Source: a virus
Strand: one strand, 5' to 3'
Virus record (IMG/VR): IMGVR_UViG_3300045282_000259
Location: 1 to 50,318 of that record
DNA: 50,318 bases
How positions within the stretch are numbered: position 1 is the stretch's first letter; every line of letters begins with the position of its first letter. The notes beneath the pieces were generated by a model. That model had not been told where the DNA came from, made no database searches, and saw only the letters and a program-made list of their open reading frames with translations. The position numbers and the translations under genes were made by a program. Below are positions 17,738-50,035 of this stretch, piece after piece.

Positions 17738-18009
17738 GTGATCTTGTAAAGCGGCTTCGCAATTTTGAAGGAATGCCTGAGGCGCAGGGATGGAATATGA
17801 TTGAAGCTGCCGACCGCATCGAGGCGCTGGAAGCGGCGCTGCGGGAGCCAACCATCGTCACCGACGAGATGGTGATGGCTGGTGCAAAAGCCATGGTCAG
17901 ACTTGGTCATGACCATCGGACAAGGGGCGAGCCGATGCCGACCCGGCTTCAAGAAGCCCGCGCCTGCCTGATCGCTCACGCCGCGCTCGATAAGGACACA
18001 GGGCAATGA
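17734..18009 (+). CDS. Joint-array gene 1: coiled-coil protein with ALDKDTGQ tail
   Basis: 91 residues, ATGA overlap at 17734. It has the helical module EAADRIEALEAALREP (residues about 25-40) and ends HAALDKDTGQ. The last 27 bases carry AAGGA and the ATGA overlap with the next gene. It belongs to the loose group of short phage accessory proteins with a coiled coil and an ARAAL end (Ea22-like in style). The function is unknown. Confidence 0.7.
   Translation: MSDLVKRLRNFEGMPEAQGWNMIEAADRIEALEAALREPTIVTDEMVMAGAKAMVRLGHDHRTRGEPMPTRLQEARACLIAHAALDKDTGQ
17981..18008 (+). repeat. Joint element, copy 1 (family 17981-22905)
   Basis: Type copy of the recurring element GCGCTCGATAAGGACACAGG plus (G)(C/A)AATGA. 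It encodes ALDKDTG(Q/K), supplies AAGGA about 9 bases before the next start and ends in the overlapping stop/start. Other copies: 18231-18265, 18483-18510, 18793-18832, 19341-19374, 20489-20520 (diverged), 20784-20822, 20993-21022, 21195-21228, 22011-22042, 22632-22666, 22870-22905, and a degenerate one at 22304-22328. Confidence 0.85.
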
Positions 18010-18278
18010 GCTTGCTGACAGAACTTCTCAAGGGCTACGCCGACCCCACGTACAAGACAGAGCTACTCGGCAAGGGAAGCCTCGATAATACAATCTCCGA
18101 TCTCTTGGAGGATGCAGTGGAGGCTGGCCATCGCATCGAAGCGCTGGAAGCCGCGCTGCGGGAGATAGCAACCACTGTCTCAACGTCGCGGGAGCCGTTT
18201 CTTATAAAGCTGGCTGTCATAGGCAATGTAGCCCGCGCCGCGCTCGATAAGGACACGGGGCAATGCCGGGAACCGTAG
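18006..18278 (+). CDS. Joint-array gene 2: coiled-coil protein with LTELLKGYADPTYK head
   Basis: 90 residues. It starts MSLLTELLKGYADPTYK; 43 bases of this head (18015-18057) recur identically at 19378-19420 in an otherwise unrelated gene. The middle has AGHRIEALEAALREI; the end is VARAALDKDTGQCREP, running past the joint by four residues. The next gene starts inside it at 18263. Confidence 0.7.
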   Translation: MSLLTELLKGYADPTYKTELLGKGSLDNTISDLLEDAVEAGHRIEALEAALREIATTVSTSREPFLIKLAVIGNVARAALDKDTGQCREP

Positions 18279-18511
18279 ACATGAGGTGGCGCAGCCCGGT
18301 TTGCGACGCGTGTCGGCGCGAAGTCGATTATGTCCGCGGCTCGGTCTGGCACGGCGACAGCCGGATTTGCACGGAATGCTTCATGCAGTGGTACGACCCC
18401 GATAACAGCACGTTCGATAATTGCGATCCGGTTGAACTCGGCAACTACATTCGCAGCAAGCACGGCTTGCCACCATTACCAGCCGCGCTCGATAAGGACA
18501 CAGGGAAATGA
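18263..18511 (+). CDS. Joint-array gene 3: zinc-ribbon protein with ALDKDTGK tail
   Basis: 82 residues. SPVCDACRREVDYVRGS, then RICTECFMQW, forms a CxxC...CxxC zinc site. It ends LPAALDKDTGK from the joint element, although its body is unrelated to the coiled-coil members. It starts in the joint with ATG 18263. The function is unknown. Confidence 0.7.
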   Translation: MPGTVDMRWRSPVCDACRREVDYVRGSVWHGDSRICTECFMQWYDPDNSTFDNCDPVELGNYIRSKHGLPPLPAALDKDTGK

Positions 18512-18792
18512 GCAACAAACATCAATTAGGTGATGCACCAATCCAGCCCGAATTTTACGTGAAGATGAATGACCTCGCCAAGGTACTCGATAAATTTTTA
18601 AATGGCGAAGCAAAGGGCAAGGACCGCAAGAACGGTTTTGTGCTGATGGTGTACGCATTTGGCAATCTAGCTAGCGGCGATGCGCGCTGCAATTACATCT
18701 CAAATGGTGCAGATCGCAGGGATGTAGTCACCTTGATGAAGGAAATGATTGCCCGTTTTGAAAGCCAGCCAAAACAATCCGGTAAGGCATGA
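18508..18792 (+). CDS. Joint-array gene 4: hypothetical protein lacking the tail
   Basis: 94 residues, ATGA start. It reads MSNKHQLGDAPIQPEFYVKM, then GFVLMVYAFGNLASGDARCN, then MKEMIARFESQ. It stops before the joint element, which follows as a separate mini reading frame (18789-18833). It is the only member with that arrangement. The function is unknown. Confidence 0.65.
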   Translation: MSNKHQLGDAPIQPEFYVKMNDLAKVLDKFLNGEAKGKDRKNGFVLMVYAFGNLASGDARCNYISNGADRRDVVTLMKEMIARFESQPKQSGKA

Positions 18793-18833
18793 TCGCCCGC
18801 GCCGCGCTCGATAAGGACGCAAGACTTTTATGA
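18789..18833 (+). CDS. Mini reading frame made only of the joint peptide (14 residues)
   Basis: ATG 18789 overlaps the upstream stop (ATGA) and the frame reads MIARAALDKDARLL. Its stop TGA overlaps the ATG of the methyltransferase gene. So even where the upstream protein ended early, the joint element keeps its own frame and the stop/start chain is unbroken. It may be translated only to pass ribosomes on. Confidence 0.5.
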   Translation: MIARAALDKDARLL

Positions 18834-19375
18834 CAATCCAGTTCAGCCGATGCTTCGCAATGCCGAACGCTGAAACATTCAGCGTTAAGCCCATTGGCGA
18901 GTTCGTGAAGCGATACCTGGCCATGACGAAGGTTAGCGTTGATCCATTCGCTTGTAACCGGGATTGGGCAACCTACACGAACGACATTAATTGCAACACG
19001 TTAGCGCAAACACACATGGATGCCGAAGAATTTCTGTTTCACTTGGCTCATCGTGGCGTGATTGCTGATTTAGTGCTGTTCGATCCACCTTATAGTCCCA
19101 GGCAGGTTTCCGAGCACTACAAAGCCGCTGGCCGCAAAGTCATTGCGGAAGATACACAGAACGGCAGACTTTATCGCCGAGTTCGTGATGCCATTGGTTG
19201 CATCGTCCGCCCTGGCGGGGTCGTGCTTTCGTTTGGCTGGCAATCGGTCGGCATGGGCATTGGTCGCGGTTATGAGCTAATTGAAACGATGCTCGTTGTT
19301 CACGGCGGTGGCCACAACGACACGATCTGTATTGCCGAAATCGCCCGCGCCGCGCTCGATAAGGAAAAAAAATGA
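18830..19375 (+). CDS. Joint-array gene 5: putative DNA adenine methyltransferase
   Basis: 181 residues. ADLVLFDPPYSPRQVSEHY contains DPPY (85-88), the amino-methyltransferase motif IV. KVSVDPFACNRDW and TNDINCNTL precede it; GGVVLSFGWQSVG follows. This fits small phage N6-adenine methyltransferase-like proteins. The C-terminus IARAALDKEKK comes from the joint element. Likely target: phage DNA, perhaps against host restriction; activity is not proven. Confidence 0.75.
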   Translation: MTIQFSRCFAMPNAETFSVKPIGEFVKRYLAMTKVSVDPFACNRDWATYTNDINCNTLAQTHMDAEEFLFHLAHRGVIADLVLFDPPYSPRQVSEHYKAAGRKVIAEDTQNGRLYRRVRDAIGCIVRPGGVVLSFGWQSVGMGIGRGYELIETMLVVHGGGHNDTICIAEIARAALDKEKK

Positions 19376-19647
19376 GACTGACAGAACTTCTCAAGGGCTA
19401 CGCCGACCCCACGTACAAGAAAGAGATCATGGGCTACGTCTTTGCTACCTCGTCATGTATCGGCTGCGGCCGACTGTTCTCGTACAACCCGCACCGCGTT
19501 CCGTCATGCAGCGCGGTGACCGGCAAGCGCGAGCCGATCTGCCTGGATTGCGTCGAGCGGGTAAACCCGGAAAGGGTGAAGAAGGGTCTCGATCCGATTG
19601 TGATCCAGCCCGACGCCTACGAGCCATTGCCGGAGGACGAGCTGTGA
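19372..19647 (+). CDS. Joint-array gene 6: zinc-binding protein with grafted LTELLKGYADPTYK head
   Basis: 91 residues. Residues 3-17 repeat the head of gene 2 with identical DNA (19378-19420). From ATG 19429 (MGYVFATSSCIGCGRLFSYN, then ICLDCVERVNPERV) the body is a known kind of phage CxxC...CxxC protein that normally starts at this Met. So the head looks grafted in frame onto a complete gene. The function of the body is unknown. Confidence 0.7.
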   Translation: MRLTELLKGYADPTYKKEIMGYVFATSSCIGCGRLFSYNPHRVPSCSAVTGKREPICLDCVERVNPERVKKGLDPIVIQPDAYEPLPEDEL

Positions 19648-20018
19648 GCGAGTGGCCGAGAAGCGAGTGGCCGAGATACTACATCCTCGTTGATCGTCTG
19701 CCGGTCGCGGTTGACTTCATGACGTGGGCACCCTGGTTCGGGAACATCGACGCCCGGCGTGTCGCGCGAACCGTTATCGACGCACACTGCTCGGTCTCAA
19801 CCGTGTTCTGCGGCTTCGACCACAATTTTGGCGGCGGCGAGCCGCTCCTGTTCGAAACTCTGATCTTCGGCGGCCCGCTCGCTCACGAGATGTGGCGCTA
19901 CTCAACCTATGCCGAGGCCGAAGGCGGGCACGCCGAAGCCGTGACGCAAGCCAAGATCGCAGCGGCCAAGATCAAATCGATTGCAGACAATGCCGGAGCG
20001 AAAAATCAGAAGCCATGA
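19644..20018 (+). CDS. Conserved phage hypothetical protein
   Basis: 124 residues from GTG 19644, overlapping the stop of the gene before. Characteristic blocks: YYILVDRLPVAVDFMTWAPW, then VSTVFCGFDHNFGGGEPLLF, then GGPLAHEMWRYSTYAEAEGG. I recognise this as a widespread phage family without known function. It has no joint tail. Confidence 0.75.
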   Translation: MSEWPRSEWPRYYILVDRLPVAVDFMTWAPWFGNIDARRVARTVIDAHCSVSTVFCGFDHNFGGGEPLLFETLIFGGPLAHEMWRYSTYAEAEGGHAEAVTQAKIAAAKIKSIADNAGAKNQKP

Positions 20019-20521
20019 GACTGTACGACCTTAAATCGCTTATCGAGTTCGCATCCGTGCAGGCGGAAAAATTCTTCCGCAGGAACGGCGTTCTATACCT
20101 GATGTATCACTGCATCAAGGCCGATGGCGAGACCGCGATCCTTACCCCGCCGCCAGACTGCGACAAGGACACGTCCGTCGCTCTGATGAAGGCGTGGTTC
20201 GCGATCGAGAACGTCGACCGCTACGTCTTCATGGACGAGGCGTGGATCGTTGATGATAGGCGCGGCCAGATCGGACTGGATATTGCGAAGGTCAAGCGCG
20301 AAGGCGTGCGCAACCATCCAGAGCGCCGCGAGATAGTGCTGTTCTCGGCTGAGAACATCCGTGGCGAGCAACTGATGGCGACACGCTTCATCTTGCGCCC
20401 GGAGGTCGGCAAGCCGAAGCTCTCGCCGCTCAAGATCGATGAGCCGTTCGACCACAGCGAGGGCCGCATGGTCGGAATGCTCAACTGGAGCGCCGTGCTC
20501 AATAAGGACGCCAGCGAATGA
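20015..20521 (+). CDS. Hypothetical protein with diverged joint tail
   Basis: 168 residues, ATGA overlap at 20015. Blocks include GVLYLMYHCIKADGETAILT, then NVDRYVFMDEAWIVDDRRGQ, then RREIVLFSAENIRGEQLMAT. It ends SAVLNKDASE, a drifted form of ALDKDxGK. No recognised domain. Confidence 0.65.
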   Translation: MRLYDLKSLIEFASVQAEKFFRRNGVLYLMYHCIKADGETAILTPPPDCDKDTSVALMKAWFAIENVDRYVFMDEAWIVDDRRGQIGLDIAKVKREGVRNHPERREIVLFSAENIRGEQLMATRFILRPEVGKPKLSPLKIDEPFDHSEGRMVGMLNWSAVLNKDASE

Positions 20522-20823
20522 GTGAACTTGTAAGACGTTTACGTAAACAGGCTTCTGACGCCATCGATTGGGATGGCGAAACGTTAAAGAGGTGGGATGA
20601 AATCCGGGGCATGATTGAAACGCGTAAGGGCAGCGACCTTCCACGGCTGATGTTCGAAGGCCTGATTGAGAATTTAACCGAACTCATAATCGAAGCCGCC
20701 GCCCGTATCGAGGCGCTGGAGACGGCGCTGCGGGAGATCGAAGATTGTCTCGACTATGTCAAAGACAAAGGCGTTGTATGGAAGATCGCCCGCGCCGCGC
20801 TCGATAAGGACAATGAGAAATGA
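20518..20823 (+). CDS. Joint-array coiled-coil protein
   Basis: 101 residues. An N-terminal helical region (MSELVRRLRKQASDAIDWDG) is followed by EAAARIEALETALREI and the tail IARAALDKDNEK. It has both shared modules of the array: the helical one and the joint. The start overlaps the upstream stop. Confidence 0.7.
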   Translation: MSELVRRLRKQASDAIDWDGETLKRWDEIRGMIETRKGSDLPRLMFEGLIENLTELIIEAAARIEALETALREIEDCLDYVKDKGVVWKIARAALDKDNEK

Positions 20824-21023
20824 ATGATGAGCATAACATCATTCAAACCGAGAATTGGCGACGGTATGCGGCTTGGGATCTGGTGCGCCAAGCCGTCATT
20901 GATTTACGCCGGGGCGGCGACATTACTGGCGTGACGACCGAGAAGATGAAGCGATTGTTTCCCGAGATTCAGACTGGGTATGAAACGCTTCGCGCCGCGC
21001 TCGATAAGGACGCGGGGAAATGA
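20820..21023 (+). CDS. Joint-array small protein
   Basis: 67 residues. It reads MNDEHNIIQTENWRRYAAWD, then LVRQAVIDLRRGGDITGVTT, and ends LRAALDKDAGK. No helical IEALEAAL module. The function is unknown. Confidence 0.65.
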   Translation: MNDEHNIIQTENWRRYAAWDLVRQAVIDLRRGGDITGVTTEKMKRLFPEIQTGYETLRAALDKDAGK

Positions 21024-21229
21024 ACGATACTCTTGTCGACCGTTTGCGTTTTCACAGCGCGACATTGGATCGATCGCTGTGCATGGAAGCCGCATCCCGC
21101 ATCGAGGCGCTGGAGGCGGCGCTGCAAAGGATTGTCGGGATAAGCGAACATTACGTCGTTATGCCGTCAGTCTTGTGTGAAGCGATACAGGGCGCCCGCG
21201 CGGCGCTCGATAAGGACGCAGGACAATGA
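21020..21229 (+). CDS. Joint-array coiled-coil protein
   Basis: 69 residues. MNDTLVDRLRFHSATLDRSL is followed by MEAASRIEALEAALQRI and the tail ARAALDKDAGQ. Both shared modules are present. ATGA overlaps at both ends. Confidence 0.7.
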   Translation: MNDTLVDRLRFHSATLDRSLCMEAASRIEALEAALQRIVGISEHYVVMPSVLCEAIQGARAALDKDAGQ

Positions 21230-21822
21230 TTGCGCTGCTCGACACCAGCCACGACCTTGACGACTGTGCCGCCGAGCTTGACTGCGCAGTAGGACAATTG
21301 CTGACGCCGCTGACCCGTTTCCGGTTACGCGATCCTGTGAGACCATGGGCGATCGACAACGGAGCCTTTGCCGGGTTCGATGTCGACGCATTCATGGCGT
21401 TGCTGGCGCGCGAGTTCGTACACCGGCAACACTGCCTGTTTGTTACCGTGCCCGACGTGGTCGGCTCGGCACGGCGAACGCTGGAAGTATTCGAACACTG
21501 GCGGGCACGACTTGGCGGCTGGCGGCTGGCACTGGCATGTCAGGACGGTCAGGAAGATCTGCCGGTGCCGTGGGGCCGGATCGATGCGGTATTCATCGGC
21601 GGCTCAACCAACTGGAAAGGCTCGCTTGCTGCGGTGCAGATCATCCGGGCGGCGCAATTGCTCGGCAAGCACGTCCACGTCGGCCGCGTCAATGACGGCG
21701 TGCGTTGGAAGCATTTCGAGCAACTCGGCGTCGATACCATCGACGGCACCGGCATTTCCCGCTACTCGAATATGCGTGAGGCGGTCGCCGACCGGCACCG
21801 GCAACTGGAATTTCAGACATGA
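21226..21822 (+). CDS. TIM-barrel-like protein, possibly tRNA-guanine-transglycosylase/DpdA-related
   Basis: 198 residues. Blocks: VRPWAIDNGAFAGFD, CLFVTVPDVVGSARRTLEVF, then LACQDGQEDLPVPWGRIDAV, FIGGSTNWKGSLAA, GKHVHVGRVND and DTIDGTGISRYS. The FIGGST-WK and HVGRVN pattern recalls the transglycosylase-like family of deazaguanine DNA modification (DpdA). I am not certain. No preQ0 synthesis gene is seen in the window. No joint tail. Confidence 0.5.
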   Translation: MIALLDTSHDLDDCAAELDCAVGQLLTPLTRFRLRDPVRPWAIDNGAFAGFDVDAFMALLAREFVHRQHCLFVTVPDVVGSARRTLEVFEHWRARLGGWRLALACQDGQEDLPVPWGRIDAVFIGGSTNWKGSLAAVQIIRAAQLLGKHVHVGRVNDGVRWKHFEQLGVDTIDGTGISRYSNMREAVADRHRQLEFQT

Positions 21823-22043
21823 ACAAGCATCCAGATTATCGCGGTGTTTACGTTCGCACCTCACCGCGACCGTCACCCTATTTCGCTCGTCTCAGCCGCA
21901 AAGGCCAATGGATATTTTCGGCATACTTCAAGCAGCCAGAAGATGCGGCAAAAGCCTATGACCAAATCGCAGGTTCGATATGGGGCAAGCATGCAACTCT
22001 GAACTTTCCACGCGCCACGCTCGATAAGGACACGGGGAAATGA
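21819..22043 (+). CDS. AP2-like DNA-binding protein with joint tail
   Basis: 74 residues. Residues about 7-64 follow the AP2/ERF domain plan: YRGVYVRTSPRPSPYFARLS, then KGQWIFSAYFKQPEDAAKAY, then IWGKHATLNFP. Phage AP2 domains are usually DNA-binding parts of homing endonucleases or stand alone. The end RATLDKDTGK is the joint element. Confidence 0.75.
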   Translation: MNKHPDYRGVYVRTSPRPSPYFARLSRKGQWIFSAYFKQPEDAAKAYDQIAGSIWGKHATLNFPRATLDKDTGK

Positions 22044-22312
22044 AGTTTTTCATCGATACAATAACTCCATGTCCAAGTGAAGTGCGTGTCGGCAATGTAT
22101 ATCACGTCAAAGGCGGTTACGGCACAAAGGCCGGGCACATGATGGTCTTGATGGCTATTACGGAAGGCGAGACTTGCCTTCTTATGGTCGTAGATAAACA
22201 TGGCAATCCCGTTGGGATCACCAATTACGGAATGCACTCTCTCGATGAACGCATGCCGATAGCTTTTTGTGAAGGTCTGGACGCTTTGGAGTTTCGTATC
22301 AGGAGCTTGTAA
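22040..22312 (+). CDS. Conserved phage small protein
   Basis: 90 residues: VGNVYHVKGGYGTKAGHMMV, then LMAITEGETCLLMVVDKHGN, PVGITNYGMHSLDERMPIAF. A beta-rich small domain I recognise from other phages, without known role. Its stop falls inside a degenerate joint element (22304-22328) read in another frame. Confidence 0.7.
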   Translation: MKFFIDTITPCPSEVRVGNVYHVKGGYGTKAGHMMVLMAITEGETCLLMVVDKHGNPVGITNYGMHSLDERMPIAFCEGLDALEFRIRSL

Positions 22313-22325
22313 GGACGTAAGAGAG

Positions 22326-22667
22326 ATGAGCGACCGCAAAAGCGCCGAACGCGCTATCGAGGCTTTGAGAAACCCCGACCCATCGTTGGCGCATGTCGTA
22401 AACACTGTCAGGCAATCACTCGCTGAAGTAGTTGAAGACCAACAAAACCGCATCGAGGAGCTGGAGGCGGCGCTGCAACGCATCGTACAATGGAGCGAGG
22501 CTTATCCGCTTGACATCTTCCCAGAGCCTGACTGGAAGAAAGCGCGGTCGCTGCTTGAAGCTGGCGGCATTACCCTTGATGCGGTCTCCGCGCATTGCAT
22601 GCGGCACGTCATCGAAGGCGTCGGCAAGATTGCCGGAGCCGCGCTCGATAAGGACGCAGGGAAATGA
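22326..22667 (+). CDS. Joint-array coiled-coil protein
   Basis: 113 residues from ATG 22326. Helical start MSDRKSAERAIEALRNPDPS, module QQNRIEELEAALQRI, tail KIAGAALDKDAGK. Both shared modules are present. AAGGA within the degenerate joint serves as ribosome site. Confidence 0.7.
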   Translation: MSDRKSAERAIEALRNPDPSLAHVVNTVRQSLAEVVEDQQNRIEELEAALQRIVQWSEAYPLDIFPEPDWKKARSLLEAGGITLDAVSAHCMRHVIEGVGKIAGAALDKDAGK

Positions 22668-22906
22668 GCGAACCGGTAGAGATCAGGCGCAATCCGGATC
22701 AGTCGATTGACGAAATCTGTATTGATGGCGGTAACGTTCACATCGAGCAGATGGACGGTAACAGTTGGTTCATGGGCGTCGAGGCGAAAGACGGTTCATA
22801 TTGGCAATTCTGGTTCGGTGCTAAGAACCGCAAATCTCTTGTGGAATTCAGACATGCCGAAATGACGCCAGCCCGCGCCGCGCGCGATAAGGACGCAGGG
22901 AAATGA
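22664..22906 (+). CDS. Joint-array beta-rich small protein
   Basis: 80 residues. EICIDGGNVHIEQMDGNSWF, then MGVEAKDGSYWQFWFGAKN, looks like a small beta sheet domain. It ends PARAARDKDAGK, a joint with one L-to-R change. ATGA overlaps at both ends. Confidence 0.7.
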   Translation: MSEPVEIRRNPDQSIDEICIDGGNVHIEQMDGNSWFMGVEAKDGSYWQFWFGAKNRKSLVEFRHAEMTPARAARDKDAGK

Positions 22907-39618: not shown

Positions 39619-40518
39619 TCAGCGCCTCAACTTCGTTAGTACCGGGTAGAGATCGCAAGTGACTACCAGCCCGTCGCTGTTGATCAGCGTCACCAGTCCT
39701 TCGCCGTCTATGCTCATGCCGACCACCGACGGACCCGGCGGCCCGCGCTCGCCTCGCTGCCCCGGCAAGCCTCGCTCGCCCGGCTTGCCCTGTTTGCCCT
39801 GGCTCGCCATCAACTGCCAGCCATCGCCTGGACATGGGCCAGGATCATCCCGCTTCGCCACGAACGACCCGCCATTCAGGATGACGACATCGAGCGCCTT
39901 GTATTGCTTGTCAGCACTCCAGGTGCCGCAGATCTTGAACGAGACACCGTCCATGCCGTCGTGCCCCGAGCGAGCAAGGCAGGCCCAGTCCTCATGGGGA
40001 GGGGCTCGTCCAGTGTCACACTGGGCCTGCCAGGTCGCACCGTCCTGCGTCACGACGGAGCCCTCGTAATGAACCTGGTCTGTCCATGCCTTGACGATCG
40101 GCAGCTTGCCGGGAGAACCAGGTTCGCCGCGATCCCCGGGGAGGCCAGTAAGACCGTCCAGACCCCGCTCGCCCGGCTCGCCCGGCTCGCCGCGCGTGCC
40201 TTGTTCGCCCGGCAGTCCATCCATGCCCCTCTCGCCGCGCTCCCCAGCAAGCCCCGGAGGGCCTTCCGGACCCGCTTCGCCGGGAGAACCTGGCGCGCCG
40301 TCCATGCCCCTCTCGCCGCGCTCCCCAGCAAGCCCCGGAGGGCCTTCCGGACCCGCTTCGCCGGGAGAACCTGGCGCGCCGTCCATGCCTTTCTCGCCCG
40401 GCGGTCCTGGCGTTCGCACCAGCTCGGCCAGCTTGGCCTCCAGTGCGATCCGCTGCGCCCGCTCCTCGGCGAGCTGTTCGCCGACCGCGGCAATGATCGA
40501 CCTGGCATCAAGCTGCAT
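39619..40518 (-). CDS. Collagen-like protein with carbohydrate-binding-like modules
   Basis: 299 residues. A short helical start is followed by Gly-X-Y repeats (residues about 35-138). Two beta modules follow (VHYEGSVVTQDGATWQAQCD, then WSADKQYKALDVVILNGGSF), each with the W/Y pattern of small chitin/CBM5-12-like domains. A second collagen stretch (GKPGERGLPGQRGERGPPG) and a beta end complete it. Overlaps the portal gene by 11 bases. Probably a virion fibre or head-surface protein; the Gly-X-Y part would trimerise. Confidence 0.78.
   Translation of the reverse strand: MQLDARSIIAAVGEQLAEERAQRIALEAKLAELVRTPGPPGEKGMDGAPGSPGEAGPEGPPGLAGERGERGMDGAPGSPGEAGPEGPPGLAGERGERGMDGLPGEQGTRGEPGEPGERGLDGLTGLPGDRGEPGSPGKLPIVKAWTDQVHYEGSVVTQDGATWQAQCDTGRAPPHEDWACLARSGHDGMDGVSFKICGTWSADKQYKALDVVILNGGSFVAKRDDPGPCPGDGWQLMASQGKQGKPGERGLPGQRGERGPPGPSVVGMSIDGEGLVTLINSDGLVVTCDLYPVLTKLRR
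40220..40381. repeat. Perfect 81-bp tandem duplication in the collagen-like gene
   Basis: 40220-40300 and 40301-40381 are identical. 81 bases are 27 codons, exactly nine Gly-X-Y units, so the duplication keeps frame and register. Confidence 0.85.
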
Positions 40519-47128: not shown

Positions 47129-47157
47129 TTGACAAGTAGGAAAGGCCGCACTAGATT
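47129..47157 (+). promoter_or_regulatory. Strong rightward promoter of the right-end small-gene cluster
   Basis: TTGACA (47129-47134), 17 bases, TAGATT (47152-47157). A near-consensus sigma-70 promoter. The reverse strand has TTGTCA over the same bases, so a divergent late promoter may share the -35 region. Confidence 0.75.
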
Positions 47158-47199: not shown

Positions 47200-47230
47200 C
47201 GAGTGTTGAAGCACTCGCAAACCAAAGGAT
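47200..47230 (+). promoter_or_regulatory. Structured leader 1: hairpin plus ribosome site
   Basis: CGAGTG-TTGAAG-CACTCG (47200-47217) followed by CAAACCAAAGGA. The same design occurs at 47341-47367 (GCGTG-TTAAAG-CACGC), 47705-47737 (CGAGTG-TTGAAG-CACTCG) and in the apical part of 49399-49430. The stem bases change in pairs while the loop stays UURAAG, which implies an RNA structure. Confidence 0.7.
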
Positions 47231-47234
47231 CGAA

Positions 47235-47333
47235 ATGACAATCAATCGCGCTGTGTTTATCTTTCGAGCTGTGCTTACCGCGCAGGCCTTAAGCTTGTTC
47301 GCGTATGCCTCTTACGTGACGGCGGTTAACTAA
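47235..47333 (+). CDS. Very small hydrophobic protein (32 residues)
   Basis: MTINRAVFIFRAVLTAQALS, then LFAYASYVTAVN. ATG 47235 follows AAAGGA in leader 1. One hydrophobic helix. It may be a leader peptide or small membrane protein. Confidence 0.5.
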   Translation: MTINRAVFIFRAVLTAQALSLFAYASYVTAVN

Positions 47334-47378
47334 ATCCCTCGCGTGTTAAAGCACGCTCAAACCAAAGGACTAAACGCA

Positions 47379-47630
47379 ATGTTTGTTGTGATCTATGAAC
47401 CTTCCACCAATGTTACTCTGTACTCTCGCCGTATGGGCCCAAACGAAACAATGGATACTCGCAAGTTCGCAGACATGATTGCCGCTGAGTATGACCGCGA
47501 GATTGCCGAAGCAAACGGACATATCCCGAATTGTTGCGGAGATATCCGAGTCGAATTCCGCCCGCGCAAAAACGTGGCTTGGCACATCTGGAGCGGCGAA
47601 AGTTTCTACTTCAAACGCGACGACGACTAA
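47379..47630 (+). CDS. Small hypothetical protein
   Basis: 83 residues from ATG 47379 after leader 2. MFVVIYEPSTNVTLYSRRMG, then IRVEFRPRKNVAWHIWSGES. An alpha/beta small domain; no family was recognised. Confidence 0.65.
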   Translation: MFVVIYEPSTNVTLYSRRMGPNETMDTRKFADMIAAEYDREIAEANGHIPNCCGDIRVEFRPRKNVAWHIWSGESFYFKRDDD

Positions 47631-47653
47631 ACCTAAACCAACATCGTTCCTAT

Positions 47654-47688
47654 GCCCCGCAGCGAAAGCTTACGGGGCTTAGGGCATT
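47654..47688 (+). ncRNA. GNRA hairpin element, copy 1
   Basis: GCCCCG-C-AGC-GAAA-GCT-TA-CGGGGC followed by TTAGGGCATT. The inner stem is capped by a GAAA tetraloop. A second copy with other stem bases and a GTAA tetraloop, followed by the same ten bases, lies at 49129-49165. The first copy could also pair ATGCCC with GGGCAT as an alternative fold. It acts as leader or terminator between small genes. Confidence 0.6.
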
Positions 47689-47704
47689 AGGAACATCCGT
47701 TCCG

Positions 47705-47737
47705 CGAGTGTTGAAGCACTCGTCAAAACCAAAGGAC
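47705..47737 (+). promoter_or_regulatory. Structured leader 3: hairpin plus ribosome site
   Basis: CGAGTG-TTGAAG-CACTCG (47705-47722), then AAAACCAAAGGA. It precedes the start at 47744. A small hairpin GGAAC-ATCC-GTTCC (47690-47703) stands just before it. Confidence 0.65.
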
Positions 47738-47743
47738 CAAACA

Positions 47744-48550
47744 ATGCGCAACGCGCAAACGGCAACCTATGACTCCAAATCTCCGAACGGTTTTATCTTC
47801 TATCGTGGTCCGTCAATGCTAGACGGATCTCCCATTGTCGCCATTGCTACGCGCGTTACCAGCGCGTCAAAGAATTCAAAGACGGGTGCATTAGTCGCAA
47901 CCTATATCCTGCGCGATGACATCAACCCCGTTGATGCCGTTCGCCAAGGCTTGGACAAATCGGTGTGTGGCTCATGCGTTCATCGTGGCTGGTACGACGC
48001 AACCACGAATAGCTGGAAAGATCGTTCCTGCTACGTTGTGATCGGACAAGGACCGCTCGGCGTTTTCAATGGTTTCGAGCGTGACATCTATCCGCAGGTA
48101 TCTCCCGAACAGGCATGCGAGTGGTTAGCTGACCATGCCGTGAGGCTTGGTACCTATGGCGATCCCGCCGCCGTCCCTGCCGATGTTTGGCACGTCATGT
48201 TGCGCAAGGTGAAGGCGAAAGCAGGATACACGCACCAATGGCGCACGTTTCCCGAATTCAAACGCCATTGCATGGCATCATGCGACACGGCGGAGGAACA
48301 ACAAGCCGCAACAGCGTTAGGCTGGCGCACGTTCCGGACGCGGTTGCCGTTTGAGAACAAGCAATCAAACGAAATTGCCTGCCCGGCATCGATGGAAAAG
48401 GGCTATGCGACGACTTGTGCGCTCTGCAAAGCTTGCGGCGGCCGATCGGCAAAAGCAAAAACATCCATCACAATCATAGCTCACGGAGGAACCGGACAAA
48501 TTCGCGCCTATAACCGCACGCGCGCGCGACTAGATGCGGCTGCAGCTTAA
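47744..48550 (+). CDS. Conserved plasmid/phage protein of unknown function (DUF7227-like)
   Basis: 268 residues. SPNGFIFYRGPSMLDGSPIV, CGSCVHRGWYDATTNSWKDR, SCYVVIGQGPLGVFNGFERD, VRLGTYGDPAAVPADVWHVM, GYTHQWRTFPEFKRHCMASC, then CPASMEKGYATTCALCKACG. Ten or more cysteines suggest metal binding. I recognise the family from phages and plasmids; the function is not known to me. The AYGDPAAVP block recalls radical-SAM-like or nicking proteins but no proof exists. Confidence 0.75.
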   Translation: MRNAQTATYDSKSPNGFIFYRGPSMLDGSPIVAIATRVTSASKNSKTGALVATYILRDDINPVDAVRQGLDKSVCGSCVHRGWYDATTNSWKDRSCYVVIGQGPLGVFNGFERDIYPQVSPEQACEWLADHAVRLGTYGDPAAVPADVWHVMLRKVKAKAGYTHQWRTFPEFKRHCMASCDTAEEQQAATALGWRTFRTRLPFENKQSNEIACPASMEKGYATTCALCKACGGRSAKAKTSITIIAHGGTGQIRAYNRTRARLDAAAA

Positions 48551-48584
48551 AATCTCAACTCTCAAACCAAAGGACCAAAACCAA

Positions 48585-48697
48585 ATGGCAAAGACACAAA
48601 CCACGATTCGATTCTCGGTTACGCAATGCAGTACGACACTCTGCTGACCTGGGCCTGCGACCATGGCAACGGCGGCGCCGAATGCGGGGAGGACTAA
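48585..48697 (+). pseudogene. Split or overlapping very small frames
   Basis: ATG 48585 follows CAAACCAAAGGACC and gives 20 residues (MAKTQTTIRFSVTQCSTTLC), ending at 48647. An overlapping frame from ATG 48626 gives MQYDTLLTWACDHGNGGAEC, then GED, ending at 48697. Together they look like one gene broken by an indel, or two coupled mini genes. Low confidence. Confidence 0.35.
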
Positions 48698-48844
48698 ATG
48701 AAAAAACACGATGCCCTCTATAGCGTCGAATTGACGATTGACGAACTGAATCGATTGTATGCCGCAATACTCTATCGCGAAAACGATTCTGCGCTTGCGA
48801 GAAAACTCGAAAAAGCAATGATTGATGCAGGGAGGACTAAATGA
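48698..48844 (+). CDS. Small helical protein (48 residues)
   Basis: MKKHDALYSVELTIDELNRL, then YAAILYRENDSALARKLEKA. ATG 48698 is preceded by GGGGAGGACTAA; the next gene start has nearly the same GGGAGGACTAAATGAAA. ATGA overlap with 48841. Confidence 0.6.
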   Translation: MKKHDALYSVELTIDELNRLYAAILYRENDSALARKLEKAMIDAGRTK

Positions 48845-49107
48845 AATATACCGATAAAAACGGCAAGCGCCGCGCCCATTATTGGGGTTTAGCTCGCCGT
48901 TGGTTACCGATATCAATCGACGCTGCGGAGCTCGAGCTAGCAACTGGCAAAGCATTGCCGGCCGAAACGGCAACTCCCGGTCAATCGGCCTATGAAGCGG
49001 ATTGCCTAAAAGAGCCGACATACAAAGACGGTTCACAGCGCAAACCATGGTCGGCATTGCCAGAGCACGCGCGCTATTCATGGGAACGGAATCCAACCCC
49101 GCGCTAA
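48841..49107 (+). CDS. Small hypothetical protein
   Basis: 88 residues: MKYTDKNGKRRAHYWGLARR, WLPISIDAAELELATGKALP. Tail with Trp/Pro. Coupled to the previous gene. No family. Confidence 0.6.
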   Translation: MKYTDKNGKRRAHYWGLARRWLPISIDAAELELATGKALPAETATPGQSAYEADCLKEPTYKDGSQRKPWSALPEHARYSWERNPTPR

Positions 49108-49128
49108 CCCGTTCCACCATAGCTTTAC

Positions 49129-49165
49129 GCCGCGCGCTGGTAACAGCTGCGCGGCTTAGGGCATT
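49129..49165 (+). ncRNA. GNRA hairpin element, copy 2
   Basis: GCCGCGC-GCTG-GTAA-CAGC-T-GCGCGGC then TTAGGGCATT. The stem differs from copy 1 (47654-47688) but pairing, tetraloop type and trailing TTAGGGCATT are kept. Confidence 0.6.
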
Positions 49166-49197
49166 GCAAGAGATCACAAACCAAAGGACCTAACCAA

Positions 49198-49371
49198 ATG
49201 TATTGTGTCAATATTTATGATCCAAACGGCGTTTTGCGCTTTTGGGTCGGAGGTAAAACAAAAGGCGAAGCAATCGAACAAGCACGATGCAAGGTGGCGG
49301 AACATTGTCTCGCAAATCCAGATGAACCGCCCGCAGACAAATGGCACCTAGGCAATGTCATGCGGCAATAA
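49198..49371 (+). CDS. Small hypothetical protein (57 residues)
   Basis: MYCVNIYDPNGVLRFWVGGK, then TKGEAIEQARCKVAEHCLAN. ATG 49198 follows AACCAAAGGACC. An alpha/beta mini domain. Unknown. Confidence 0.6.
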   Translation: MYCVNIYDPNGVLRFWVGGKTKGEAIEQARCKVAEHCLANPDEPPADKWHLGNVMRQ

Positions 49372-49398
49372 CGGCACCGCACCATGCCTGAAATCATC

Positions 49399-49430
49399 GG
49401 CCCCGCTAGTGTTGAAGCACAAGCGGGGCC
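49399..49430 (+). promoter_or_regulatory. Structured leader 4: extended hairpin
   Basis: GGCCCCGCT-A-GTG-TTGAAG-CAC-A-AGCGGGGCC: a perfect 9-bp outer stem around the conserved GTG-TTGAAG-CAC tip. It precedes 49483 by about 50 bases; ACCAAAGGACCAAAGGACCA with doubled ribosome site lies between. Confidence 0.65.
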
Positions 49431-49482
49431 TAACGCTATTCCGCAACACATGAGACCAAAGGACCAAAGGACCAAAACTCAC

Positions 49483-49695
49483 ATGTCACGAAAAGCGCTG
49501 TCCAACCATGACGCGACCAAAGCGGCCGCGCAATCCCTGTTGCGCCAAGGCCTGGCGACCTATGCGGAGATCGCCGCACTATCGGGCTATTCCCGCCAGA
49601 CGATCCGCTTCTTTGCGGGCGAACTAGGCGCGGAAAACGCACGCGAGGAACATCTAGCCAAGCTTTGGGACCGCGCGTTGCGGCGCAACGAATAG
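49483..49695 (+). CDS. Helix-turn-helix protein
   Basis: 70 residues. QGLATYAEIAALSGYSRQTI, then RFFAGELGAEN, is a resolvase-like HTH. Last gene of the right cluster, before the repeat region. Could bind the iterons or leaders; speculative. Confidence 0.65.
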   Translation: MSRKALSNHDATKAAAQSLLRQGLATYAEIAALSGYSRQTIRFFAGELGAENAREEHLAKLWDRALRRNE

Positions 49696-49890: not shown

Positions 49891-49904
49891 GGCCGCCCCC
49901 CCCG

Positions 49905-50021
49905 TCCGCGTTTATGAGCCCCATCCGCGTTTATGAGCCCCAAATGGGGTATCCGCGTTTATGAGCCCGCTACCCCCGTCCGCGTTTATGAGCTGCGATC
50001 CACCCCGTCCGCGTTTATGAA
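49905..50021. repeat. Five iteron-like direct repeats
   Basis: TCCGCGTTTATGAG begins at 49905, 49924, 49952, 49979 and 50008 (last copy ends in GAA). Start-to-start spacing is 19, 28, 27 and 29 bases. A run of such repeats in the only sizeable non-coding region, beside an inverted repeat, fits a replication origin or partition/regulatory site. Confidence 0.75.
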
Positions 50022-50035
50022 TTTCGATTTTCGTC

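Follow-up and report, generated by a model that had tools for sequence, protein, structure and literature searches.

The right end of a soil phage record in IMG/VR (IMGVR_UViG_3300045282_000259; 50,318 bases, hereafter the window) ends in a short plus-strand operon of small genes (47235–49695), with hairpins that recur in the gaps between the genes. Four of them, with the tip GUG-UURAAG-CAC, had been singled out in a first-pass annotation and are designated here family 1; that set was incomplete, as two other conserved hairpins in the same interval, H1 and H2, had been overlooked. H1 represents a second type, family 2. Covariation shows that the family-2 hairpin is a conserved structure of the sense-strand RNA. 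It lies between a stop codon and the next ribosome site and recurs in Bradyrhizobium phages and prophages, presumably also in those of near relatives. The coordinates of all features are collected in Table 1.

The phage contig L053 encodes a relative (61% identity) of the gene behind copy 2 of family 1, with GGCGGG-CAGCGAAAGCTTA-CCCGCC upstream, where the window reads GCCCCG-CAGCGAAAGCTTA-CGGGGC at 47653. Scanning viral sequences for GCAGCGAAAGCTTAC returned 48 stretches, including about a dozen places with at least six outer pairs that were located before start codons. Eight of the 14 pairs already showed double changes in an alignment of the first 11 sequences (A1), and a model (R1) recovered further copies whose altered inner stems (ACC/GGU, UCC/GGA, UGCG/CGCA) were absent from its training set; six R1 matches in other genomes were plain palindromes lacking the internal loop and were discarded. 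A scan that left the inner stem free (CCGGC...GAAA...UACCGG) identified 72 places, 40 of them with a complementary inner stem against about 4 expected, and nearly all of these 40 were upstream of a start codon. The family-2 model, R2, was built from 42 sequences and gave 63 matches in 42 loci; it matched 36 of 36 carrier records, with up to six matches per record, and about 20 copies from these same records had taken no part in its training. About 60 copies were identified in about 40 phage contigs, with more in Bradyrhizobium genomes.

Among 59 distinct family-2 sequences, 93.5% of the cells are paired and double changes occur in 13 of the 14 pairs. Double-change cells number 127, against 42 after shuffling, none of 500 shuffles reached any of the measures, and the pairing scheme outperformed every slid control. 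Covariation counts from two of the alignments lean towards structure, A3 having been filtered for sequences with a paired inner stem and A4 having been aligned to the model itself; the lower stem was not selected for. The copies from Bradyrhizobium genomes, of which only one prophage copy and that of L165 had entered the model, gave a similar picture (24 distinct sequences; 40 double-change cells against 12 shuffled, 0 of 500). The core is near-invariant, with an unpaired C and its flanking, closing G-C pairs in 59 of 59 sequences and the opposite UA in 52 of 59; several stable tetraloops occur (GAAA, GCAA, GUAA, UACG).

G.U cells outnumber A.C cells by 46 to 6 in these 59 sequences; therefore, the sense strand is the folded strand. 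This bears on the possibility that the repeats act as inverted repeats in DNA, as operators, instead of as RNA. The hairpins are palindromes, and operator-like repeats precede the phrog_2554 gene in contig L005; but the one-sided excess of G.U, the fixed orientation and the constant spacing from the stop codon make an operator role unlikely for family 2, and family 1 has an asymmetric loop and the same orientation in all four copies. Overall, we consider operators very improbable. The repeats in L005, a relative of the window phage, are three palindromes (GAGCAATWTCTGCTC) at 2640–2800 that overlap the promoter before the phrog_2554 gene and are likely repressor operators; they were rejected as kin of the window hairpins, to which they are not related.

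The family-2 element consists of an outer stem of 10–11 bp, an asymmetric C / UA internal loop, an inner stem of 3–4 bp, a stable tetraloop and a GCNNUAG tail. The distance from the preceding stop codon to the stem is 13–19 nt in 50 of 55 cases, with a median of 16 nt; from the end of the model to the following start codon, the median is 27 nt. Copies occur in a single orientation, several per genome and upstream of unrelated genes. With filters off, R2 identified two copies in the window, the next match, at another site, having an E value of 2.6; none of the four family-1 hairpins was matched, even at E ≤ 10. Copy a, which was among the sequences used to build R2, starts 18 nt past the stop of an 83-aa gene, and copy b, which was not, starts 16 nt past the stop of open reading frame (ORF) 48841–49107, preceding ORF 49198–49371. 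Hairpin H2 follows H1 in many of the copies elsewhere, though not in all, and is situated ahead of the ribosome site. Its loop is often AUCCC or AUUCC, and at least four pairs close 12 of 18 sites with a loop of this type, against 0.09 expected. Between 47645 and 47740 the window thus reads, in order, H1, H2, a family-1 hairpin, ribosome site and ATG. A terminator scan of the window listed none of these hairpins as an intrinsic terminator, and family 2 has the GCNNUAG tail and no T-run behind it. In contigs L097 (895–1010) and L228 (minus strand, 4207 onwards), which are unrelated, the element is followed by a longer common stretch (GAGAGMRCCRTAGA...CTCGGTGCCCYTAGGGGATGAGGA...GGTAGTGTRATCTCAG) that is perhaps a larger structured RNA.

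Table 1. Hairpins and neighboring features at the right end of the window.
Feature	Position	Strand	Description
Promoter-like sequence	47129..47157	+	TTGACA-17-TAGATT; upstream of family-1 copy 1; 10/12 consensus matches
Family-1 copy 1	47200..47217	+	CGAGTG-TTGAAG-CACTCG, 6 bp; 5′ leader of 32-aa ORF 47235–47333
Ribosome-site motif ACCAAAGGA	47220..49471	+	Copies at 47221, 47361, 47728, 48566, 49180, 49455, 49463
Family-1 copy 2	47341..47356	+	GCGTG-TTAAAG-CACGC, 5 bp; before 83-aa gene 47379–47630
Family-2 H1, copy a	47645..47693	+	C / UA loop, AGC-GAAA-GCU tip, tail GCAUUAGG; R2 65.7 bits, E 1.3e-14
Hairpin H2	47690..47703	+	GGAAC-AUCC-GUUCC; follows H1 copy a
Family-1 copy 3	47704..47723	+	GCGAGTG-TTGAAG-CACTCGT, 6 bp and one G.U; directly 5′ of the ribosome site of the phrog_2554 gene
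phrog_2554 gene	47744..48550	+	Encodes a 268-aa protein, function unknown; 148 named phage records have relatives
Family-2 H1, copy b	49120..49170	+	GCUG-GUAA-CAGC tip, C / UG loop; R2 31.2 bits, E 6.8e-06
Family-1 copy 4	49399..49430	+	GGCCCCGCT-A-GTG-TTGAAG-CAC-A-AGCGGGGCC; 3 bp, A.A mismatch, 9 bp

Among cellular genomes, 266 from the genus to which B. elkanii WSM2783 belongs were searched with R2, and 13 had matches at E ≤ 1e-5, often several close together and near genes of anti-restriction-like and other phage families; in wider draws from the order (397 genomes) and the class (385), the only matches were in B. elkanii WSM2783 itself. Since the matches concentrate in Bradyrhizobium, the host of the window phage is probably a member of this genus or a near relative.

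An irregular hairpin repeated between cistrons recalls the RNase III processing sites of T7, which are spread along the phage transcript. Family 2 could likewise be cut, for instance by RNase III, splitting an early transcript into protected single-gene mRNAs; its intercistronic position, its repetition and its long, irregular stem, interrupted near the top by an asymmetric internal loop, are all consistent with this. However, classical RNase III sites are longer than its paired stretch of about 14–17 bp, and specific recognition beyond the double helix is suggested by the conserved C, UA and tail, so that we consider processing rather unlikely, if worth keeping in mind. The element could also serve in antitermination, like nut or the put RNA of HK022, keeping RNA polymerase going across untranslated gaps. 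Where H2 is present it spans about 80 nt with two stem-loops, comparable to the HK022 putRNA (about 70 nt, two stem-loops; PMC9378689), and in a few copies the 5′ arm includes the boxA-like CGCUCUUA. These letters, nevertheless, sit within the covarying stem, H2 is often missing, and there are up to five or six copies within a few kb, before individual genes, instead of one near a promoter; antitermination thus appears improbable.

As to family 1, the four hairpins are found where the first-pass annotation had placed them (47200, 47341, about 47705 and 49399). Copies 1 to 3 do stand directly before ribosome sites, as each adjoins AACCAAAGGA, a repeated ribosome site with seven copies at six starts, and the last copy, said to lie about 50 bases before its gene, is located 27 nt past a stop and 52 nt before the ATG (49483) of a helix-turn-helix (HTH) gene, 49483–49695. 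The shared 12-mer GTGTTRAAGCAC has four exact matches in the window, all on the plus strand and in the right-end operon, within a span of 2.2 kb, whereas base counts alone predict about 0.01; neither the minus strand nor a reversed-pattern control gave any. TTRAAG occurs 42 times on the two strands together, and at least five continuous pairs close it only in copies 1 to 3. The reported paired change of the stem, GAGTG/CACTC to GCGTG/CACGC, is correct, but the paired changes amount to just one pair each in copies 2 (A-U to C-G) and 4 (G-C to U-A); additionally, copy 2 has a mismatch (C.U) at the next pair outward, and A.A stands in copy 4 where copies 1 to 3 pair. Counting pairs in the four sequences gave three with double changes, a value equaled by 17 of 500 shuffles, and only two of them are relevant because the third belongs to the outer stem, paired in only two sequences. 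Folding energies with flanks were ordinary for copies 1 and 2 (z −1.0 and −1.5) and better for copies 3 and 4 (−2.4 and −3.6).

R3, a covariance model built on these four sequences, recovered them in the window at 33–37 bits, the next match being at 14 bits. The covariance search in phages and Bradyrhizobium, on which the first-pass annotation had staked its claim, turned out largely against it, with no convincing further copies. Searching 266 Bradyrhizobium genomes revealed no convincing relative (best E value per genome 0.002, motif context absent), and the matches at E 0.002–0.007 in six of them were mostly plain GC hairpins or coding sequence. The best R3 matches in 74 phage and prophage loci were sequences retrieved by the same motif, the others being at chance level. 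Scanning IMG/VR for the tip plus ACCAAAGGA gave no match; the tip plus AAAGGA gave 42, about the chance number and nearly all in coding sequence or with 3-bp stems, and GAGTGTTRAAGCACTC gave 19, also about the chance number. Likewise, the hairpin was not found in 13 other phage contigs at relatives of the genes it precedes (nine for the copy-2 gene, four for the copy-3 gene), and the HTH gene behind copy 4 had no detectable relatives. Since none of these approaches yielded a relative, family 1 is so far confined to this phage. The claim that a functional RNA with paired changes precedes these genes is accordingly thin for family 1, with two pairs in four sequences, and strong for family 2.

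Some candidates from the GAGTGTTRAAGCACTC scan deserve description in their own right. Contigs L113 (2060–2160), L116, L121 and L122, apparently from actinobacterial phages, share a conserved hairpin, GGCCCC..CGAGTG-UUGAAG-CACUCG..GGGGCC, situated some 46 nt upstream of an opposite-strand gene; it is thus antisense to its gene, whose sense strand reads CUUCAA in the loop, and was rejected. Leader-like hairpins in L118, L124 and L126 bore no relation to the window, and L120 was set aside for carrying a paralogous hairpin with a differing loop. In L120 (12700–13250), a basic 36-aa ORF is duplicated and each copy has a leader hairpin (GCGGAGTG/CACTCCGC and ACGGAGTG/CACTCCGT), with compensated stem changes and different loops.

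Family 1 might not be a functional RNA as such: recombination may have spread copies of a single leader or junction cassette, duplicating the hairpin along with the ribosome site. Over 30 nt that include the ribosome site, copies 1 and 2 share 87% identity, and two of their four differences make up a single compensated pair, one lies in the loop and one breaks a pair. Moreover, no relatives of the family were found, its covariation is limited to two pairs, and the same phage has another junction cassette, with 11 repeats at 17986–22896. A plain duplication, however, does not explain why copy 4 retains only the 12-nt tip inside a new 9-bp stem, and the stem of copy 2 survived a double change. 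We thus regard a simple cassette as a serious possibility, somewhat short of an even chance.

Our preferred reading, towards which the comparisons incline us modestly, is that the right end is a small-gene operon whose intercistronic gaps carry cis-acting mRNA hairpins that would insulate and standardize gene starts. The family-2 element would fold in the mRNA just beyond the stretch that a terminating ribosome is expected to cover, keeping the cistrons separate and giving every gene its own standard start. Insulation might be achieved by shielding the ribosome site, by protecting or processing the upstream 3′ end, or by blocking readthrough by ribosomes or Rho; one common factor probably binds the near-invariant C / UA loop and the GCNNUAG tail. 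Family 1 occupies the same kind of slot in this phage, together with a copied AACCAAAGGA site; most likely it is a leader that multiplied locally and recently and has a similar insulating role.

Several observations weigh against this reading. Hairpins are not obligatory at starts with the shared ribosome site, as shown by gene starts 48585 and 49198, which have the ACCAAAGGA site (seven copies at six starts, one start with two) and no family-1 hairpin; start 48585 lacks family 2 as well. Copy 2 of family 1 starts only 7 nt past the stop of the 32-aa ORF, violating the spacing rule, and family 1 is, in the sequences compared, without independent comparative support. Finally, part of the inner-stem covariation in A3 comes from the filter, which does not affect the lower stem or the copies found later.

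More broadly, and with slightly less than even confidence, we propose a new family of phage regulatory RNAs, in which an intercistronic C / UA hairpin with an optional H2, placed just beyond the terminating ribosome and recognized by one phage or host factor, would control entire sets of small early genes in Bradyrhizobium phages, with individual phages adding hairpins of their own, such as GUG-UURAAG-CAC, to the same slots. Because of its covariation, fixed distance from the stop codon and single core, family 2 can be used as a defined RNA for probing, for mutation and as bait for a factor that binds it.

The operon itself follows a minus-strand region, up to 47086, with genes for the large and small terminase subunits and an HNH gene. 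The promoter-like sequence upstream of it is merely suggestive, because three such sites were found at the right end where 2.3 are expected. The phrog_2554 protein carries CxxC-type cysteine pairs; its relatives range from mycobacteriophages to Klebsiella and Roseobacter phages, their function being unknown in every one, and the window hairpins are not kept alongside the gene in them. Five iteron-like repeats (TCCGCGTTTATGARC) at 49904–50022, near the right end, may be a site for replication or for a repressor. An 81-bp tandem repeat among the structural genes (40220–40398; 2.2 copies, 97% match) seems to encode collagen-like Gly-X-Y repeats on the minus strand. The cassette at 17986–22896 (GCCGCGCTCGATAAGGACRCAGGGAAATGA; plus strand) lies at gene junctions and comprises 10 exact cores and a variant at 22885; at most copies the upstream ORF has ARAALDKDxG(K/Q) as its C-terminus, with a stop codon that overlaps the following ATG (ATGA). 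It resembles the start-associated sequences considered below, yet its starts are coupled instead of insulated.

As had been stated for family 1, no known riboswitch or thermometer was recognized: Rfam 15 gave nothing in the window at the gathering threshold and, for the right end at E ≤ 5, a single SECIS_4 match located elsewhere. Only sub-threshold chance matches were obtained with 12 contigs carrying candidate hairpins (L098, L084, L053, L073, L113, L121, L118, L130, L222, L225, L253 and L261). No copy of family 2 was found in named phages; look-alikes in Pakpunavirus PaP1, between convergent genes, and in Marinobacter phage AS1, with a T-run behind, were terminator-like, missed the C / UA core or its context and were rejected. 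The open-licence literature yielded neither a text nor a sequence match to family 2, which is thus apparently an RNA family not yet described, missing from annotation pipelines, in an agriculturally important genus.

Among known systems, the RNase III sites of T7 differ from family 2 in that the latter has a near-invariant core (C / UA, GCNNUAG) and a shorter helix. The HK022 putRNA and lambda nut are also structured sense-strand RNAs, found in early phage transcripts, and the two stem-loops of put are similar in total size; however, put and nut are situated near early promoters, with two put sites per genome (PMC9378689), whereas family 2 is intercistronic with up to six copies. The nearest known arrangement is that of the start-associated sequences (SAS/ESAS) of cluster K mycobacteriophages, a repeated ribosome-site sequence at non-structural genes in one part of the genome, with 11–19 copies per genome, about half of them with an inverted repeat just upstream, and of unknown function (PMC3203893). 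The likeness is one of layout only, in that the inverted repeats of family-1 copies 1 to 3 adjoin the repeated site AACCAAAGGA; the SAS is a 13-bp GGGATAGGAGCCC at start codons, the ribosome sites in the window are AACCAAAGGA, and the hosts differ. For hairpins in ESAS mRNA the authors saw little support, since departures from the consensus break the pairing (PMC3203893), whereas in family 2 the pairing is strongly preserved and the spacing from the preceding stop codon is fixed. Start-site repeats have thus been known without explanation since the cluster K phages, and family 2 provides a case with strong covariation.

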